Of a stretch of 64,000 nt of DNA, positions 23,899-37,053 are shown piece after piece. Below the pieces are notes generated by a model. It had not been told where the DNA came from. It made no database searches and saw only the letters and a list, made by a program, of their open reading frames with translations. The stretch lies in NCBI GenBank assembly GCA_022226935.1, contig CP092081.1, positions 1,994,416-2,058,415 on the forward strand, given 5' to 3'. The position numbers and the translations under genes were made by a program. Source of the DNA: Nitrospira sp. GTDB taxonomy: Bacteria; Nitrospirota; Nitrospiria; Nitrospirales; Nitrospiraceae. The first letter of the stretch is position 1. Every line of letters begins with the position of its first letter.

Positions 23899-24037
23899 AG
23901 TCCCGACTGGACGGGCGTTTGGGCTGATTGCCCCTCACCGGGGAGGGTTGTCTTCCCCCTCCTGGGCGTAGTACATATAGGGCCCGTATTGTGAAGAAAG
24001 GCCCTGCTTGGTTCATTCTGATAGAAGGAGTGATGAG

Positions 24038-25441
24038 ATGGCCGGATCTCACGCACCAGCAACATCCCTTTCTCCTTTCGCCGACCCCATCCTTGCCGCT
24101 CGTTTGGAAGCACTGAGACAGTTAGCGGGAGGACTGACTGATCGCGTCGCCGTCATGGACCGCGACCTCAATGTGGTCTACGCGAACGATGCGGCCTGGA
24201 CGAGGGAAGGAGAGAATCTCTCTGCCAGCAAACCGGCCAAATGTTATCAAGCATTTGTTCAGATGGAAGATCCCTGCGGCACCTGTCCCGCCGAATCGGT
24301 ATTTGAGACGCGTGAAGTTCGTACCGTGGCCTGTAACAGCTCGGGCGATGGGACGGCCTGCGGCATGCATCAGGCCTTCCCGCTCATGTCTGCGTCGGGC
24401 GAAGTGGGGTCCGTGCTCGTCCTATTCCATAAAACATCGGCTCCTCACACTCTTCCCAAATCTCTCCATCCGCAGAAATTGGGCCGGTCGCGTCCGGAGC
24501 GGACCGAGTCGCGGTTGGGCGACCTCGTCGGCGCCAGTTCGGTCATGCATCAGTTGTTTGATCTGATTCGGCTCGTGGCCGATAGCTCGGCGACCGTCTT
24601 AATCCAAGGTGAAAGCGGGACGGGAAAAGAACTCGTGGCCCGAACCATTCACCAGACCAGCTACCGTCGCGACAAGCCGTTTGTGGTGGTGGACTGCGGC
24701 GCCCTCCCCGAGACGTTGCTGGAGAGTGAACTCTTCGGCCATGTCAAAGGCGCGTTCACCGGTGCTTCCGGGGCCAAGCCCGGTCTGTTTGAAGAGGCCG
24801 ACGGCGGCACCATTTTCCTGGATGAGATTGCGGACACCTCTCCGACATTTCAGGCGAAACTGCTGCGGGTTCTGCAGGAAGGCGAGATCAAGCGAGTCGG
24901 CGGGACTCAGCCCATTAAGATCGATGTCCGTGTCATTTCAGCCACAAACAAGGATCTGACCGATCTCGTCAAGGCGAAGGCCTTTCGGCAAGATCTGTAT
25001 TATCGGCTCGCCGTCTTGCCTGTGCACTTGTCTCCACTGCGAGAGCGGAGAGCGGATATTCCGCTCCTGGTAAAAAAGTTCATCGCGGATTCATGCCAAC
25101 GGCATCGGCAAGAGCTTCGTCAAGTGAGCGAAGAGGCCATGCGTGCCTTGACCGCTGCACCCTGGCAGGGAAATGTGCGCGAGCTACAGCACTACATCGA
25201 GCGTGCGGTCGTCACCACCACGCATGCGGAATTGACCTGTGCGGATTTGGTGGCATTGGGATCCCATGTGGAGCCGGCTGACCTGCGTACAGTTGGGCGG
25301 GATGCGGCCAAGCAGGCTGAACGGGCACGGATTCTTCAGGCCTTGCAGCAGACGTCTGGAAACAGGATGAAGGCGGCTCGTCTCCTGAAGATCAGTCGAG
25401 CCAGCCTCTATAATAAACTTCACGACTTCGGCATTCGGTAG
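24038..25441 (+). CDS. sigma-54 activator with Cys-bearing N-terminal PAS domain
   Basis: A 467-residue bacterial enhancer-binding protein. It has no receiver; the N-terminal PAS-like domain (about 20-130) has cysteines at 69, 80, 83, 99 and 108, including CGTC, consistent with metal or redox sensing. The AAA+ domain (about 160-390) has Walker A GESGTGKE, an intact GAFTGA loop and FLDEIA, and the C-terminal Fis-type helix-turn-helix ends [15 protein letters not shown] 24038 follows AAGGAG by seven bases. The nearest downstream transcription unit is the giant multicopper oxidase, whose upstream region has a sigma-54 promoter match; I infer that it is the target. Confidence 0.92.
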
Positions 25442-26014: not shown

Positions 26015-29000
26015 ATGAGGTCTTCAGTGCAGTCAAAGCGCAGGCGCATCAGTCGCAAAGCGATGCTGAGCCTGCAGGCGGCGCTGCTCTCGGGCAGTTT
26101 GCTCGCGGCGCCGTGGGTGTTTGCAGCCGGGCCAGGGGATCAGTCGCATGAGGGACATGCGACGCCGGTTGCCATGCCTGGTTGGACCCAGACCCTCAAG
26201 GGTCAGACCGTGGTGGAAAACGCCATGGAGGGTCGTGCCGGGAACGCAGAAAAGATGGAAATGCAGCACCACCGCCTGATGGAGAAGTTGGAAGAGCAGG
26301 CGGGTAAAGATGCCAAGGCCCAGCAGACGTCCGGTGCATTCAACGAAATGTCGATGATGCACCAGTACATGGGCCAGGACGGAAGCAGTTTCTTGCTGGC
26401 GTCCGATTCATCGAAGGGTGAGCCGGTCATGACGTCGGGCGGTAAATGTCCCGCCAATGCGCCGGTCAAAAAGTACGATGTGTCGATGATCAACATCGAA
26501 ATCAGCTTGAACCGGTGGCTGGACTTCTATCCCGGGTATATGTACGTCCATACTGCGGATATCGACAAGGCTCGCGCCGAGGAAACCAAGAACAAGGAAG
26601 CGCGCGAAAAAGACGGCTTCGATCCTGGGGCGGTCACAACCGGCAACCAAGGCGATGTCATTCAACCGTTGGTGCTCCGTGCCAACCAGGGCGACTGCGT
26701 CAAGATGACGCTGCGCAATCAGATGGAAGGCGAGGATGGCAGCTTGGTCATCCAGGCTTCCAGCATGATTGTGAGCTCGACCGGTAAGCCTGCCACGACG
26801 ACGAACCCGGATACGGTCGTATCCCCGGGCAAGGCGCAGGAGTTCGAATGGTACATCCATCCGAACATGCAGGAAGGTGTGCGTCAGTTCCACTCCTGGA
26901 GCCATGATCGCGAGTTGACGGTGCTGGGTCTTTTCGGCGCCTTCATCGTCGAACCCAAGGGCTCCAAGTACCTCGATCCGCTCGGTACGGGCGCCGCGCC
27001 TGATACCAACAGCGGATGGCAGGTCATGATCGACAACGGGTCCGGACCGGACTTCCGCGAGTTCGTGTTGTTCTATCACGAGATCGGCGACGAAGCCTTC
27101 CGGCCGCTGAACAAGAAGGGTGACTTCTTGCCGCAGCGCGATCCGTTGACCGATGCGTATCGGCCGGGTGGCCGCGCGATCAACTATCGCAGCGAGCCGT
27201 TCGGCATCGATCAGATGCATTTGCAGCATGAATATTTCGGCTTCGAAGATGAGTCGCTGGCCTACAGCGCCTACACCTTCGGTGACCCTCCCACCACGGT
27301 CGCCCGCGGCTACCTCGGTGATCCGGTCAAGTGGCGGTTGGTCCATGGTGGATCCGAAGTGTTCCACTCCCACCATCCCCACAGCGGAACCATCCGTTGG
27401 CAGCGCAGCCCGCGTGCCGATCAGGAAGAGCATTGGTACAAGGGTCAGGACGGTCCGGTGAAATATCCGGTGGTCCGCACGAAGTCGGATCGAGTCGACG
27501 TGGAAGTCGTCGGTCCCTCTGAGGCCCTTGACCTGGAGCCGGAGTGCGGCGGCGGTGGCTGTCAGCACCTGGCCGGCGAATTCCTCTATCACTGCCACGT
27601 CGCGCACCACTATGTGGCGGGCATGTGGGGGTACGGCCGGTTCTACAATACATTGCAGGTCGGCAATGCGCACACCGACACGATGCCGGATATGCGCGAA
27701 TTGCCCGATCGTTTGGGCCGCATGAAGCAGGGTGTCTCGTCCGATAAGTTGATCGGTACCACGGTCGACTGGTTCGGCAAGACCTTCAAGATCGTCGATA
27801 AGAGCCAGAAGACGAACTGGAAGTCCGATCCTGTGATCGTGAACATCAAGGATTGGGTCGAGATGTTTGTGCCAGCCCAGGGTCAACCGGGCCACACCAA
27901 CGATGAGAAGGGCCAGATCATGGCCTACGATTCGACGGTGTGGGACTGGAAGTGGGACGGCAACATCGCCCGCGGCGAGCGGGAGAGCACTGCTCCGAAT
28001 CCGAAGTATGCCTGGGCCGCCAAGTGGGACGACAGCACCAGACCGGCAATCCTGTTCGATCCGACGACAGGAAAAATGGCCTGGCCGTTGTTCAAGCCGC
28101 ACTTCGGCAAGCGTGTGCCGTTCTCGGCGAACCACAGTGGTGCGCCATGGTTGGAGCCGATTCACCAGGATGCAAACGGTGAACGGACCTCCGAACCGGC
28201 GATGCCGGGCGAACAGGGTCGTTGGAGCCTGTGCCCTGACAATGCCAATCGGAAGCATTACAACATTCACTTTGTCCGCATGCCGATCACCCTTGCTAAG
28301 AAGCAGGGGAAAGAGCCGGCCATGGTGGACAAGGATGGTCTGATCTACGTCCTTCACGAAGAAGAGCGTTTGACCAGAGCCAATGACGATCTGAAACTGC
28401 CCGCCGTCATCCGCGCCAACGTGTATGACTGCGTGGACTTGTTGTTGACCAGCGAATGGGACGACGACGATTACACGAATTTCCAGTCGTCCAAGATCAA
28501 CATCCATCCCCACTTCTTCCAGTTCGACACCGGCAATTCCGACGGTGTCATCTCCGGGATGGAGTACGAAATGTCGGTTCGGCCATTCACCATGTGGGGC
28601 AAGAAGACCAAGCATGGGTTGCCGGCACCGATGGTTGCGAAGCTGACCGGCGAAGTCAAAGCCGGTGCTTCCTCCATCAAGATCCAGATGGCGCCCGGCG
28701 CCACCGCCTTCCACGTCAACACCGAGTTGATGGTGGGTATGGATTGTTTGGAGAAGGGCAACGATCCTGCAGCGTCATTGCCGCGGGATAAGAGCTGTCA
28801 GGAAGTCGCCCGCGTCAAGGAAATCAAGGGCGATGTCGTCACGTTCTTCAAGCCGCTGAAGCACCATCACCCGGCGGGCGATCTCGTGTCGCCGGAGTTT
28901 GTGCGGTATCGGTGGTGGGTGGACGTGGATATGGGTACGGTGTTCTGGCATGACCACGCGTTCGGCGCGACGACCTGGCCCCATGGCGGGTTCGGCGTGA

Positions 29001-30952
29001 CGATCGTGGAGCCATTCGGATCGACCTACCATGATCCAAAGAACGGCAAGTTGGTGTATAGCGGTCCGATCGCGGACATTCACAGCAACGAGCCGATCGG
29101 TGCCGGTGTCAGCGGCAGCTTCCGTGAGTTGATGGTCTCCATCCACGACACGGTGCCGCACACCGTCAACGTCATCGAAGCTGGCAATCCTCCGGGACAG
29201 CCGATCGAAGTAGCGTTGGAAGCAGGAAAAACGGTGTCCTTCCAGATGCCGGACAAGATCCTGAATGCGCCGAACAAGTACATCAACGGCGGGACGCACA
29301 CGACCGGTAGCGGGTTCAACTTCCGCGCGGCTCCGTTTGCGCAACGCCTGTCCAACAACCCGGATACCTCGAAGCTGTTCAGCAGCGCGATCCACGGTGA
29401 TCCGGGCACCCCGCTCCTGCGGGCGTACACGGGCGACACCATGGTGTTCCGCCTGCTGCATCAGTTGATGAACGAATCCCATGTCTGGACGATCGCCGGA
29501 CATACCTTCCTCACGGAGCGGTATGCACCGGATGCCAATCGGAAGAACTCGATTCACGTCGGGATCGCCGAGCGGTATGACCTCGTGACCAAGGCAGGTG
29601 GATTCCAGGGTATGCCGGGTGACTACATCCACTTCAACGGCAGAACGTCACACTTCGCCGAAGGTGGATGGGGCATCATCCGCGTGCTCGATAAGGAAAC
29701 GGCAGACTTGAAGCCGCTGCCCCGGGGAACGAATCCTCTCGGGATTCCGGCGACTCCAAACTCTGTCTGTCCGTCGGACGCCCCGGTGAAGAGCTTCAAC
29801 GTCGTGGCGTTGGATCGCCCGATGAAGCTCAATCCGAAGGCCCCGGATGCGATCGAAGTGGACTTCGAGCGGAAGATCGAAATGACCATGCCGGAAGGCA
29901 AGATCTTCGCGCTGGAGGAAGAAGCCGCGACCGTGGCGGGCAACGTGATGCCGAATCCGCTCACGCTGCGCGCGAATCTGGGCGATTGCATCAAGGTGAA
30001 TCTGAAGAACAAGATGAAGGCAAGCCGGGCGTCGTTCTTTGCGCCGGGCCTGGCCTTCGATCCGAAAGACAGCCAGGGCTTGAACGTCGGTAACAATGCC
30101 GGCGATCAGACCGTGGCTCCGGGCGAGAGCCGCACCTATACCTACTACGCGCATCCTTCCAATAAGGAAACGACGTCGTTGGTGTGGGACGGCGGGAACA
30201 TCGTCGTCAATCCGCGCAACGGATTGTACGGCGCGATCGTCATCGGTCCGAAGGGATCGCAGTATCGTGATCCTATCACCGGTGCCGATGTGTCACAGAA
30301 GAACACATGGCGGGCCGACGTCATCGTCGACACCACCTTGTCTGAAAATGCCGGAAAGCGGAACTATCGTGACGTGGCCCTCTTCTTCCAAGATGAGGAC
30401 AACATCATCGGAACCGCCTTCATGCCCTATGTGCAGAACGTGGCCGGTTTGACGTCGGTGAACTACCGCGCTGAACCGTACAAGTTCCGCGAAGAACAGG
30501 GCTGCTCCTTGGGCAAAATCTTCCAGCCTTGCGCGGTCGATAAGCCCGAAGATCCCGTCACGCCTCTGATCGAGGCGCACGCGGGTGACGCGCTCCGGAT
30601 CCATGTGATCGGAGCGAACAGCGAGCAGAACGGCATGTTCAGCGTCGAGGGCCACGAATGGCCGATCGAGCCGTACATGGCGGGTGCCGACATGATCAGC
30701 GTGGTGGAGTACGCCGGGTCTGAGATCCTCGATGTCTTCATCCGTGGCGGTGCGGGCGGACCGTATCGTCAGGTGGGTGACTTCGTGTGGTCGAATGCAC
30801 GGCTGCCCTACACGCAGTCGGGACAGTGGGGCTATCTGCGCGTGTTGCCGACCGGCGATTCGCGAATTCAGCCTCTCAGCGCAAGTGGTGCAGGTGCACG
30901 TCAAGCCGACGTACAGCCTGAGCCGCAGGCGATTCCAACTGCCATGAAGTAA
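26015..30952 (+). CDS. giant secreted multicopper oxidase with three internal repeats
   Basis: A 1645-residue exported protein; the N-terminus has a Tat-like basic stretch (RRRISRK), a hydrophobic core and a likely AFA-type cleavage near residue 38. Copper-site motifs: HSWSH at 293-297, HSHHPHS at 451-457, HCHVAHHYVAGM at 526-537 (Cys and His of type 1 and type 2/3 sites with axial Met), HPH at 831-833 and WHDH at 978-981. Three repeats start at CP-x2-A (Cys 145, 740, 1252), each with a second Cys in an RAN-x2-DC motif (228, 806, 1325). The third repeat has lost the histidines. Ordinary laccases have about 500 residues; Mn-oxidising MnxG-type proteins are comparably large. The substrate is unknown; Mn(II), Fe(II), Cu(I) or organics are possible. 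Confidence 0.88.
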   Translation: MRSSVQSKRRRISRKAMLSLQAALLSGSLLAAPWVFAAGPGDQSHEGHATPVAMPGWTQTLKGQTVVENAMEGRAGNAEKMEMQHHRLMEKLEEQAGKDAKAQQTSGAFNEMSMMHQYMGQDGSSFLLASDSSKGEPVMTSGGKCPANAPVKKYDVSMINIEISLNRWLDFYPGYMYVHTADIDKARAEETKNKEAREKDGFDPGAVTTGNQGDVIQPLVLRANQGDCVKMTLRNQMEGEDGSLVIQASSMIVSSTGKPATTTNPDTVVSPGKAQEFEWYIHPNMQEGVRQFHSWSHDRELTVLGLFGAFIVEPKGSKYLDPLGTGAAPDTNSGWQVMIDNGSGPDFREFVLFYHEIGDEAFRPLNKKGDFLPQRDPLTDAYRPGGRAINYRSEPFGIDQMHLQHEYFGFEDESLAYSAYTFGDPPTTVARGYLGDPVKWRLVHGGSEVFHSHHPHSGTIRWQRSPRADQEEHWYKGQDGPVKYPVVRTKSDRVDVEVVGPSEALDLEPECGGGGCQHLAGEFLYHCHVAHHYVAGMWGYGRFYNTLQVGNAHTDTMPDMRELPDRLGRMKQGVSSDKLIGTTVDWFGKTFKIVDKSQKTNWKSDPVIVNIKDWVEMFVPAQGQPGHTNDEKGQIMAYDSTVWDWKWDGNIARGERESTAPNPKYAWAAKWDDSTRPAILFDPTTGKMAWPLFKPHFGKRVPFSANHSGAPWLEPIHQDANGERTSEPAMPGEQGRWSLCPDNANRKHYNIHFVRMPITLAKKQGKEPAMVDKDGLIYVLHEEERLTRANDDLKLPAVIRANVYDCVDLLLTSEWDDDDYTNFQSSKINIHPHFFQFDTGNSDGVISGMEYEMSVRPFTMWGKKTKHGLPAPMVAKLTGEVKAGASSIKIQMAPGATAFHVNTELMVGMDCLEKGNDPAASLPRDKSCQEVARVKEIKGDVVTFFKPLKHHHPAGDLVSPEFVRYRWWVDVDMGTVFWHDHAFGATTWPHGGFGVTIVEPFGSTYHDPKNGKLVYSGPIADIHSNEPIGAGVSGSFRELMVSIHDTVPHTVNVIEAGNPPGQPIEVALEAGKTVSFQMPDKILNAPNKYINGGTHTTGSGFNFRAAPFAQRLSNNPDTSKLFSSAIHGDPGTPLLRAYTGDTMVFRLLHQLMNESHVWTIAGHTFLTERYAPDANRKNSIHVGIAERYDLVTKAGGFQGMPGDYIHFNGRTSHFAEGGWGIIRVLDKETADLKPLPRGTNPLGIPATPNSVCPSDAPVKSFNVVALDRPMKLNPKAPDAIEVDFERKIEMTMPEGKIFALEEEAATVAGNVMPNPLTLRANLGDCIKVNLKNKMKASRASFFAPGLAFDPKDSQGLNVGNNAGDQTVAPGESRTYTYYAHPSNKETTSLVWDGGNIVVNPRNGLYGAIVIGPKGSQYRDPITGADVSQKNTWRADVIVDTTLSENAGKRNYRDVALFFQDEDNIIGTAFMPYVQNVAGLTSVNYRAEPYKFREEQGCSLGKIFQPCAVDKPEDPVTPLIEAHAGDALRIHVIGANSEQNGMFSVEGHEWPIEPYMAGADMISVVEYAGSEILDVFIRGGAGGPYRQVGDFVWSNARLPYTQSGQWGYLRVLPTGDSRIQPLSASGAGARQADVQPEPQAIPTAMK

Positions 30953-30977: not shown

Positions 30978-31022
30978 GATGGGGGAGCTGCCTGTTTCAC
31001 GCAGCTCCCCCATCTGCGTTTT
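30978..31022 (+). terminator. rho-independent terminator after the multicopper oxidase
   Basis: A perfect 14-bp stem (GATGGGGGAGCTGC with GCAGCTCCCCCATC) and nine-base loop are followed by a short T run (GCGTTTTG). It lies 26 bases after the stop, so the downstream blue-copper gene probably has its own promoter or depends on read-through. Confidence 0.85.
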
Positions 31023-31111
31023 GAGGTTTGAGAGAGGAATTCAGTGATGGGATTTTTGTATGATCGATGATGTGTCGAGCGTACATCAACCCATCACAGA
31101 GGAGGCCGGAC

Positions 31112-32101
31112 GTGACACTGGGTATCACAGCAAGGAATGAAGAGCAGCAGATGAAGCAACGGGTGTTCGGGGTGGTTTTGGGGCTGGCGACGGTCGTCGG
31201 TGCAGCCTGTTTCGCGAGCGGTCCTGTGTCAGCCTACGAAGAAGTCACCGTCTCCGATGGAGGGACGCTGACGGGAACCGTCAAGCTGGAAGGAGCCGTT
31301 CCGAAACCCAAGGGCTACAATCTGACCACGTTGCCTGATCCGTACTATTGCGGGCGAATTTCCGACGGAGAAGGCTGGCGCATTCTGCAGCCATTTAATG
31401 TCGGGCCGAAGGGGGAGTTTCGGGAAGTGGTCGTGTATCTCGAAGGGATCAATAAGGGGAAATCGTTCGCGGAAAAAGAAGTGCCGCAAATCGAAGCCAA
31501 GGACTGCCTGTTCCTTCCCTTTACGACCGTCGTACGTGACGACCAATCGGTGACCGTCGTCAATATGGATCCGGTCATGCACGATATTCAGGCCTATGAA
31601 ACGTCGAATTTGGGCGCGCGGGTCCTGTTCAACGTACCGCTGCCCATGAACCCGCAACACCCACGGAACTTCAAGGATCGCACCGAGGCCGGGATGTATC
31701 ACAAACACATGGCCGGTCCGCCGATGAAAGAGCTCGTGAAACTCAGCAAGGGCCGCAAGATTTTCGTCATGCAATGCGGGTTTCATGCGTACATGGAGAG
31801 CTGGGGCGTGGCGATTACCAATCCGTACTTCGCCAAGACGGATGAGCAGGGTCGATTCACCATGACCGATGTGCCGCCGGGCACCTACAAGTTGGTCGTC
31901 TGGCATCCCTATATCAGGACGGCCACGGAACAAACCGTCACTATTGGGCCTAAAGCAACTGTCGAAACGACGATGGGGGTTCCGGCGCCGACTGGGCGGC
32001 TGTACGCCAATGAGGTGTTGGACCACGCCTATACCCGGTACAACGTGACCGAGGAAGCGAAGAAGGAAATCGATCCCTTGCTCCAAAAGCAGGAGCATTG
32101 A
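31112..32101 (+). CDS. exported cupredoxin-like protein with carboxypeptidase-regulatory-like domain
   Basis: About 329 residues. The signal peptide (VFGVVLGLATVVGAACF, cleaved near VSA-YEE) is followed by a beta domain in which MHD and MQCGFHAYM form a His plus C-x2-H-x2-M set, the ligand pattern of type 1 (blue) copper. Then comes a carboxypeptidase-regulatory-like beta sandwich (GRFTMTDVPPGTYKLVVWHPY). GTG 31112 has GGAGG six bases upstream; ATG 31151 is the alternative. The position after the multicopper oxidase suggests it passes electrons to or from that enzyme. Related proteins are annotated only as regulatory-like or methylamine-utilisation proteins. Confidence 0.75.
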   Translation: MTLGITARNEEQQMKQRVFGVVLGLATVVGAACFASGPVSAYEEVTVSDGGTLTGTVKLEGAVPKPKGYNLTTLPDPYYCGRISDGEGWRILQPFNVGPKGEFREVVVYLEGINKGKSFAEKEVPQIEAKDCLFLPFTTVVRDDQSVTVVNMDPVMHDIQAYETSNLGARVLFNVPLPMNPQHPRNFKDRTEAGMYHKHMAGPPMKELVKLSKGRKIFVMQCGFHAYMESWGVAITNPYFAKTDEQGRFTMTDVPPGTYKLVVWHPYIRTATEQTVTIGPKATVETTMGVPAPTGRLYANEVLDHAYTRYNVTEEAKKEIDPLLQKQEH

Positions 32102-32191: not shown

Positions 32192-33121
32192 ATGCGTATG
32201 AACGGCAAGATTGGTTTTAAGATTCTCATGGCAGTGACGCTGTCGATGTCGTTCACGGCAAGTGAGCTGTCGTTTGCGGACCATGAGTTGCCCAAGCCGC
32301 CGCCGCTCTGGTCCCCGCTTGATGAAGCGGAACGGCTGGCGTTGATCGAGGTGCCGAATGGAATGGCCGACGTGCCGGCCGGTCCCTTTTTGATGGGCAG
32401 CGATCCGAAATTTGATCGAGCGGCCGGTCCCCAGGAATTGCCGCAGCACCAGGTGTACGTCGATGCCTTCAGCATCGACCGGTACGAAGTCAGCAACGTG
32501 AACTATCTCCGGTACGTATTGGCGACGGGCGCGGCCTGGCCGCATTACTGGCGTGCCCAGCCGTTTCCGGAGAAGATGGCCAAACATCCGGTCATCGGCG
32601 TGTCGTGGCGGGAAGCTGATGCCTATTGCCGTTGGCGTGGGGCTCGTTTGCCGACTGAAGCCGAATGGGAAAAAGCGGCACGGGGTGAAGACGGGCGAAT
32701 GTTTCCCTGGGGCAATGAGCCGGCCGGGTGGATCAAGAGCAATATCGCCCATCCTGGTTCAAAGCGAGGGGCGAAGTATCCACCGTTGGCCAATGTGGAT
32801 CGCTACGATAACGGGGTAAGTCCGTACGGGGTGCATCAATTGGCCGGCAATGTGAGTGAATGGGTCTCCGACTGGTTCGACCCGGAATATTACCGGCGCC
32901 AGGAGACCCGCAACCCTCAGGGGCCTGCGTCGGGTCAGGATAAAGTGTTCCGAGGCGGATCATGGAACGAGGATCCCGAGGTGGCCCGTTCCGCCGGGCG
33001 AAACGCCGGAGGGCTGGACCACTGGAGTTATCTGACAGGGTTTCGCTGTGCAACATCGGGCGAGAGCGGTCGTCAGCTTTCGTCGATCGATCCGGGCAGT
33101 CTGCGGAATGCGGATCGCTGA
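32192..33121 (+). CDS. exported SUMF1/FGE-fold protein, copy 1
   Basis: A 309-residue protein with a signal peptide (ILMAVTLSMSFTASELSFA) and one formylglycine-generating-enzyme-like domain: PAGPFLMGSD, YEVSNVNYLRYV, RLPTEAEWEKAARG, LAGNVSEWVSDWF and GGSWNEDPEVARS. True FGE has two active-site cysteines shortly after the GGS motif; here that segment has none, so sulfatase activation is unlikely. Non-catalytic SUMF1 proteins (for example NirV and PvdO) work alongside periplasmic metalloenzymes or peptides. Its partner is likely the neighbouring copper proteins. A paralogue follows directly. Confidence 0.85.
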   Translation: MRMNGKIGFKILMAVTLSMSFTASELSFADHELPKPPPLWSPLDEAERLALIEVPNGMADVPAGPFLMGSDPKFDRAAGPQELPQHQVYVDAFSIDRYEVSNVNYLRYVLATGAAWPHYWRAQPFPEKMAKHPVIGVSWREADAYCRWRGARLPTEAEWEKAARGEDGRMFPWGNEPAGWIKSNIAHPGSKRGAKYPPLANVDRYDNGVSPYGVHQLAGNVSEWVSDWFDPEYYRRQETRNPQGPASGQDKVFRGGSWNEDPEVARSAGRNAGGLDHWSYLTGFRCATSGESGRQLSSIDPGSLRNADR

Positions 33122-33152
33122 GTGTGACGGCAGGACAACAAGGAGGCCAGAG

Positions 33153-34115
33153 ATGAAACGATTGCACATGGGCATGAAAAGGAAACGGGCGCGGTTGGCG
33201 CAGGCGCTTGTCATCGGAGTCGCGCTCTTCGCGCTGGCTCCTGTCGCGCGGGCGTTGGATACACAAGACATCATCGTCGAGTGGACGCCGGAAGGGAAGG
33301 CGCTTGCCGAGCAGCGTGTGGCGACCATGACATTCAAGGAAGAAATGGTGCGGATCCCGGCAGGCGAATTCATCATGGGCAGCGACAAAAAAACCGACCG
33401 TGTCGCGTATCGGTCCGAATTCCCGCAGCGCCGCGTCTATCTGGACGCCTACGAGATCGACAAGTACGAAGTCACGAATCTCCACTATTTGAAATACATC
33501 CTCGCAACCGGCAAATTGCCGCAACTGGATTGGCGGTATGACGGGGGGAATTTTCAAGAGTCGATGGCGAACCACCCGATCATGCACGTCTCCTGGTACG
33601 ATGCCGACAACTATTGCCGCTGGGTCGGCAAGCGGTTGCCCACCGAAGCGGAATGGGAGAAGGCTGCGCGTGGCGAGGATGGACGGTTGAATCCATGGGG
33701 AAACCAATCGGCAGGCCTGAGCCGCGCGAACTTTGGCCGGACCGGACTCTCCGGTCCGGTCCGCGACCGACCTGAACGGCTGTTGATGTATCCACCGCTC
33801 ATTTCGGTCGATAAGTACGATAACGCCGTCAGTCCCTATGGCCTGTATCAAACGCTCGGAAACGTGTCGGAATGGGTCAACGACTGGTACGATCAGGACT
33901 ACTACAAGACTGCGCCTGACCGAAATCCGAAAGGGCCGGAAACCGGAACGCAGAAAGCTTTCCGTGGTGGCGGTTGGATGGATAGCACTACCACGATGCG
34001 CGTGGCAATGCGGAATGGCACAGACCCCACGACCAAGATCAATTGGATGGGCTTCCGTTGCGCGCGCGATGCCAAGGAGGACACGGGAGCAAAGGTCTCA
34101 ATGACGAAAGAGTAG
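33153..34115 (+). CDS. exported SUMF1/FGE-fold protein, copy 2
   Basis: A 320-residue paralogue of the preceding gene with a signal peptide (ALVIGVALFALAPVARA) after a basic start. The domain has PAGEFIMGSD, YEVTNLHYLKYIL, RLPTEAEWEKAARG, LGNVSEWVNDWYD and GGGWMDSTTTMRVAMRN. It also lacks the FGE cysteine pair. ATG 33153 follows AAGGAGG; the frame upstream overlaps copy 1. The first about 65 mature residues differ more than the core, so the copies may bind different partners. A hairpin follows the gene. Confidence 0.85.
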   Translation: MKRLHMGMKRKRARLAQALVIGVALFALAPVARALDTQDIIVEWTPEGKALAEQRVATMTFKEEMVRIPAGEFIMGSDKKTDRVAYRSEFPQRRVYLDAYEIDKYEVTNLHYLKYILATGKLPQLDWRYDGGNFQESMANHPIMHVSWYDADNYCRWVGKRLPTEAEWEKAARGEDGRLNPWGNQSAGLSRANFGRTGLSGPVRDRPERLLMYPPLISVDKYDNAVSPYGLYQTLGNVSEWVNDWYDQDYYKTAPDRNPKGPETGTQKAFRGGGWMDSTTTMRVAMRNGTDPTTKINWMGFRCARDAKEDTGAKVSMTKE

Positions 34116-36339: not shown

Positions 36340-37053
36340 ATGATGCGGGGTCGGAGAATCAGGCGGAGTATTGGAATGTGGGGTGCATCAATTGCGATCG
36401 CCGCGGTGTTCGGTGTTGCTGGTGTGCAGCCGGCATCGGCTGAAGAAATCGGCAACATGATCGCATTTAAGGGCGGATTCATGCGGTTGAACAGCGACCG
36501 TTCCGACAACTTATTTACGGATGCCAGAAATCCGCTGGGAGCCGGTTTCAACGACAATCAAAACGGTTGGTATGTGGGCGCCTGGCTGGACTTGGCGATG
36601 TCAAAAGACGCCTGGGGCTTGATGGACAAGACGTGGGCAGTGGGCGAGATCGGTTTGCAGTTCAATCGCATCGCGTCAAAAGTCGTCACCAATACGAGCA
36701 ACATCGGCGTCGGCACGACTCCTCCGGCGGGCTTGCAAGTGACATCGACCACACCGTCCAGACAGCAGTTGACGATGGTGACGATCGATATCGCCCCCAA
36801 GCTAAAGTTCATGGAAGGGAGTGCATTCCGTCCATGGCTCATTCCGGTAGGGTTGGATATCCATGTCATCAGTCCTCCTTCCAACCAGACTCAGTATTTG
36901 GATGTCGGAGTGCAATTCGGGGCAGGTTTCGAATGGCAGGTGTGGAAGGCGTTCAAATTGGGTATGGATGCGCGCTACCATCTGACGGCCAACATGACGA
37001 ATACAACGAATAGCTATTTCCAAGTCGGCCCCTATGTCGGAATTGCGTTTTAG
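36340..37053 (+). CDS. outer-membrane beta-barrel protein
   Basis: A 237-residue protein with a signal peptide cleaved after PASA (before EEIGNM). Alternating hydrophobic beta-strand segments and a C-terminal Phe (VGPYVGIAF) are typical of BAM-inserted barrels of about eight strands. The gene has AAGGAGG upstream of ATG 36340. No specific family is recognised; an OmpW/OmpA-like single barrel is the best guess. Confidence 0.75.
   Translation: MMRGRRIRRSIGMWGASIAIAAVFGVAGVQPASAEEIGNMIAFKGGFMRLNSDRSDNLFTDARNPLGAGFNDNQNGWYVGAWLDLAMSKDAWGLMDKTWAVGEIGLQFNRIASKVVTNTSNIGVGTTPPAGLQVTSTTPSRQQLTMVTIDIAPKLKFMEGSAFRPWLIPVGLDIHVISPPSNQTQYLDVGVQFGAGFEWQVWKAFKLGMDARYHLTANMTNTTNSYFQVGPYVGIAF

Follow-up and report, generated by a model that had tools for sequence, protein, structure and literature searches.

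Two genes for exported SUMF1-fold proteins, SUMF1a and SUMF1b, lie downstream of a giant multicopper oxidase in a Nitrospira genome, and neither product has the catalytic cysteines of FGE. What could such proteins do beside a copper enzyme? A sequence-only reading had suggested assembly or binding factors for the oxidase, as NirV is suspected to be for nitrite reductases. The window analyzed here is a 64,000-nucleotide stretch of a complete 4.23-Mb genome closely related to 'Candidatus Nitrospira defluvii'; the MCO1 proteins of the two share 99% identity. Most of the Nitrospira-type nitrite oxidisers surveyed have the pair next to this oxidase, and SUMF1a and SUMF1b are therefore probably dedicated oxidase helpers. 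The features of the locus are as follows.

24008..25441, + strand: NtrC-type sigma-54 activator, upstream of MCO1 (Pfam Sigma54_activat, E 9.7e-72)
26015..30952, + strand: MCO1, 1645-aa MnxG-like multicopper oxidase (PDB 9bxa MnxG, E 3.3e-85)
30978..31014, no strand: 17-nt inverted repeat (94%) between MCO1 and the cupredoxin-like gene
31067..32101, + strand: P0004, cupredoxin-like exported protein, likely start ATG 31152, with a C-terminal carboxypeptidase-regulatory domain (Pfam)
32192..33121, + strand: SUMF1a, predicted exported FGE-fold protein of 309 aa without catalytic Cys; A-D-H at the predicted cleavage site
33153..34115, + strand: SUMF1b, predicted exported FGE-fold paralogue of 320 aa without catalytic Cys; invariant SGPVRDR-ER segment
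36340..37053, + strand: small beta-barrel-like outer-membrane protein, from the ORF list, no Pfam match

Two FGE-fold proteins without catalytic cysteines

Both predicted genes are confirmed as real, and each product matches nearly the full Pfam FGE-sulfatase model (E 2.5e-53 for SUMF1a and 3.3e-58 for SUMF1b). The listed ORF of SUMF1b opens upstream at GTG 33048; the start is most likely ATG 33153, which stands behind AAGGAGG. The AlphaFold model of SUMF1a (mean pLDDT 79.8) contains a complete FGE fold and aligns with solved human and Streptomyces FGEs at Z of about 27 over 230 residues (27.4 to 2q17 and 26.8 to 1y1e). SUMF1a is assigned to the FGE fold on this model. The model of SUMF1b was poor (pLDDT 57.7) and too weak for use, and its FGE fold is predicted from sequence alone. 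Each N-terminus has a hydrophobic stretch and a small-residue cleavage site, between SFA and DHE in SUMF1a and between ARA and LDT in SUMF1b. These termini read as signal peptides, and export is strongly indicated.

The active-site segment is GGSWNEDPEVARSAGRN in SUMF1a, GGGWMDSTTTMRVAMRNG in SUMF1b, and GGSYLCHDSYCNRYRVAAR in a sulfatase-linked Streptomyces FGE. The Streptomyces control has SYLCHDSYC in this segment, i.e., its catalytic cysteines are present. The two active-site copper-binding cysteines of FGE are missing from SUMF1a, SUMF1b, and all 14 SUMF1 copies of the genome; their absence is therefore the rule here and not an oddity of the pair. Pfam matches, N-termini, and Cys-free segments together confirm the earlier description of two exported SUMF1-fold paralogues without catalytic cysteines, and its location beside copper proteins holds, as the pair follows MCO1 and P0004. 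The only cysteines in either protein are the two at the AYC/NYC and GFRC positions. Since we take these to be the positions of the structural disulfide in human FGE, a disulfide is likely in both. SUMF1a and SUMF1b thus resemble FGE/SUMF1 in fold over the whole domain (by the SUMF1a model) and in the AYC...GFRC pair, but differ in lacking the catalytic cysteines and in not being beside a sulfatase.

The groove of FGE holds the substrate peptide. In alignments, the segment lining this groove is strongly conserved and shows no decay: residues E260-R270 do not vary among 33 SUMF1a sequences, and 38 SUMF1b sequences keep a signature of their own that includes SGPVRDR-ER. At the putative SUMF1a cleavage site, Ala-[Asp/Asn/Thr]-His stands just before the domain in 42/42 SUMF1a sequences. 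Ala29 and His31 are invariant in the 33-sequence alignment, while most neighbouring positions vary. Cleavage after Ala29 would leave an exposed N-terminal Xaa-His on the predicted mature protein. N-terminal Xaa-His groups are known as Cu(II) ligands, and SUMF1a may handle copper directly by way of its mature (Asp/Asn/Thr)-His terminus; the main claim does not need this.

Linkage to the oxidase and its limits

MCO1 carries all four copper-ligand motifs (HSHHPH 451-456, HCHVAHHYVAGM 526-537, HPH 831-833, and HDH 979-981), with ligands invariant in six diverse homologues, and is classed as a multicopper oxidase by these motifs. It resembles MnxG/MofA-type oxidases as a distant relative of MnxG, but at 109.5 bits falls far under the 3100-bit equivalog cut-off of NCBIfam MnxG (NF041487). 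To our knowledge, no description of an Mnx operon includes a SUMF1 gene. For P0004, we infer a cupredoxin-like protein from a His and a Cys-Gly-Phe-His-Ala-Tyr-Met motif (Cys-x2-His-x2-Met), a putative copper site; a PDB search with P0004 gave no match. A P0004-type gene comes after the MCO-type gene at most loci surveyed.

Linkage was surveyed in named genomes at 37 MCO1 loci with at least 3.2 kb of downstream DNA, counting genes on the same strand within 4 kb. Both genes were found at 30 loci, SUMF1a only at 2, SUMF1b only at 1, and neither at 4. At least one gene was therefore present at 33/37 loci, which favours an oxidase-dedicated role. A random same-strand match within 4 kb is expected at about 0.7% per locus; because the loci share ancestry, 30/37 against 0.7% is not a p-value. 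SUMF1a lies a median of 1.2 kb downstream of MCO1. Within the genus, its orthologues (81-95%) follow MCO1 at about 1.2 kb and adjoin SUMF1b wherever contigs allow, and the two genomes without an MCO1 match of at least 90% (G002, 66% complete, and G009) have neither gene. The order MCO1-cupredoxin-SUMF1a-SUMF1b stays at six loci where the genes beyond the pair change, and is kept down to 76-78% MCO1 identity at two others.

Among 395 Nitrospirota genomes, a SUMF1a/b-type match at E<=1e-70 was found in 85, all of them among the 162 genomes with the oxidase, with both protein types confined to related lineages. No genome without such an oxidase had a SUMF1a orthologue, and none of these orthologues was seen demonstrably apart from MCO1 in the genomes surveyed. 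SUMF1b-type genes also stand directly beside oxidases of the type of MCO2, a second oxidase paralogue of this genome, at ten loci in two other families, and genes of a third related SUMF1 subclade lie just upstream of oxidases at two loci in family f5. SUMF1a, SUMF1b with its paralogue b', and the third subclade form one group in a tree without outside sequences (support 98/94) and in one with them (83/95); two of the 14 genomic copies were left out of both trees. Oxidase-adjacent members occur in every subclade, but the copy that represents the third one here (4097 kb, assigned by its segment) has no oxidase next to it. In the literature searched, no account of the linkage between SUMF1a/b and MCO1 was found and no paper combined Nitrospira, formylglycine, and copper; papers on SUMF1 and multicopper oxidases concerned mammals or insects.

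The linkage is not universal. Seven MCO1 loci in several genera are without the pair though the oxidase is intact, and the pair is therefore not strictly required by MCO1. The b' gene, a ~68% paralogue of SUMF1b, is sited away from the oxidase in all 29 genomes of the genus (here at 2995241-2996125, beside a YceI-like gene), and no SUMF1 gene was found within 4 kb of MCO2 in this genus. As b'-type genes directly follow MCO2-type oxidases at seven loci in other families, relocation away from the oxidase in this genus is plausible. More distant families of the class have MCO and cupredoxin mostly without SUMF1, so the oxidase-cupredoxin pair looks older and SUMF1 looks like a later addition. Five oxidase alignment columns changed where the pair is absent, a number reached by 10/200 random sets without phylogenetic correction and not clearly above chance. 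Frequent occurrence of the subgroup without the oxidase or beside unrelated enzymes had been named as what would refute the assembly proposal. The survey shows this in part: b' is apart from the oxidase throughout the genus and seven MCO1 loci have no pair, but SUMF1a gives no such case.

Proposed role and alternatives

SUMF1a and SUMF1b may be periplasmic, catalytically re-purposed FGE-fold helpers dedicated to MCO1 and its cupredoxin-like partner, a reading to which we give an even chance. Exported and presumably disulfide-stabilised, they would hold in the SUMF1 groove a segment of the oxidase or cupredoxin instead of the substrate peptide of FGE, and this binding would help that protein to fold, acquire copper, or enter a complex. 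That the pair touches its neighbours, acts as a chaperone, or transfers copper is conjectural, and proteins with separate substrates could also be encoded in one operon. A more elaborate version is doubtful: a two-protein maturation system in which a Cys-stripped FGE fold loads or assembles the giant MnxG-like oxidase while SUMF1a carries copper at its mature N-terminal (Asp/Asn/Thr)-His. The original observation is correct, and its accessory interpretation is plausible. Persistent linkage in the survey strengthens it, with an assembly or binding role still conjectural, and the pair-less loci weaken it where an essential factor is meant.

The comparison with NirV stands as an analogy. NirV is likewise a Cys-free SUMF1-domain protein beside a copper enzyme and is not obligatory for its partner, having been found in about 61% of NirK genomes examined (PMC4770552). 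The partner of SUMF1a and SUMF1b is instead a giant MnxG-like oxidase, and no SUMF1 gene adjoins the NirK-like genes of this genome (179 kb and 2947 kb). In Azoarcus, a very divergent 243-aa NirV-type protein, Cys-free in the segment, is encoded beside nirK and a SCO-family gene. As the one NirV-type sequence in the tree, it lies outside the SUMF1a/b clade and its branch is very long, which makes convergent recruitment appear more likely than common descent. Further plasmid matches checked for NirV included none beside an annotated nirK. A NirK-NirV system was rejected for the locus, as no nirK is beside the pair and the pair stood apart from the one NirV-type protein in the tree.

Alternatively, the pair could be general cell-envelope binding or scaffold proteins, built on a non-catalytic FGE/C-type-lectin-like module as in PorK/GldK or SUMF2 and merely inherited in an oxidase operon, with the oxidase no client. 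PvdO (Z 24.8 against the SUMF1a model) and PorK/GldK (Z 24.7) are likewise exported and have the FGE fold but not its chemistry; they act in other pathways and their NCBIfam cut-offs are not reached by SUMF1a or SUMF1b. A scaffold role would suit the fold match of such non-catalytic relatives, the pair-less MCO1 loci, and the 14 Cys-free copies of the genome, most of which are not beside the oxidase; two lie between cytochrome bd-like genes, one lies by a CxxCH protein, and one is fused to a region that looks trypsin-like by eye. We consider it unlikely, as SUMF1a-type genes occur only with MCO1 and members of the wider SUMF1a/b clade adjoin MCO-type oxidases again and again in different families.

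It is improbable that the pair are enzymes with another, cysteine-independent groove chemistry, like PvdO, EgtB, or ToxD, acting on a substrate linked to oxidase physiology. In its favour, the groove segment has stayed invariant instead of decaying and all three enzymes are structural matches (Z 22-26), but every curated enzyme family is missed widely (PvdO NF051459, 62.5 and 70.4 bits against a cut-off of 500; EgtB, 108-116 against 360), no iron-binding DinB domain is present, and no known substrate pathway adjoins. Working sulfatase-activating FGEs, suggested by family name and fold only, are almost inconceivable: both catalytic cysteines are gone in all 14 copies, the ground on which sulfatase activation by the pair was rejected, no sulfatase was seen in 20.5-47 kb of the window, as the sequence-only reading had noted for the vicinity, and the one PF00884 match of the genome is about 250 kb away.

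The dedicated-helper reading matters beyond this locus. Non-catalytic SUMF1 proteins are widespread, and the oxidase-tied subgroup supplies a defined partner and bears on the role of NirV. The pair is also a way into the function of large multicopper oxidases in nitrite-oxidising Nitrospira, where manganese oxidation is so far only proposed; a homologue in Nitrospina/Nitrospira has been suggested to make Mn(III) as protection from reactive oxygen (PMC3578206).

Neighbouring elements and other SUMF1 copies

The inverted repeat at 30978..31014 is a possible terminator or mRNA processing hairpin. As it lies between MCO1 and P0004, one transcript for all four genes cannot be assumed. Promoter and terminator scans gave nothing above shuffled sequence. 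The NtrC-type activator is a candidate regulator; judged by eye, a similar ORF lies upstream of MCO1 at five loci, and an ORF similar to 36340..37053 comes after the SUMF1 pair at four.

The genome encodes two more full-length oxidase paralogues, 68% and 65% to MCO1. The former, MCO2, lies upstream of cytochrome bd-like genes. Such an oxidase was described in a cluster of NXR and bd-like genes in Nitrospina gracilis (PMC3578206), and MCO2 appears, on our reading, to be that oxidase. Downstream of MCO2, two cytochrome bd-like genes flank a second pair of SUMF1 genes that are likewise Cys-free (G000:C1:371.6-373.4 kb; L044:7605-9406). Several relatives (L065, L104, L121) have MCO1 and MCO2 as a tandem that encloses the cupredoxin gene and the SUMF1 pair. 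In one MAG, MCO1 has six in-frame TGA codons and a broken middle (L117:10001-14923; G022:C12:138416-143338), which may be a sequencing error or a pseudogene, and the adjoining SUMF1a and SUMF1b look intact.

Among the remaining SUMF1 copies, one at about 2481 kb (L052:5266-6882) encodes a 538-aa protein whose N-terminal region resembles a trypsin-type protease by eye (GSGVIVHHDGYVLTAHHVV). Another, at about 4011 kb (L050:4113-5782), is followed by a gene for a small protein with a haem-binding CVVCH (CxxCH) motif.
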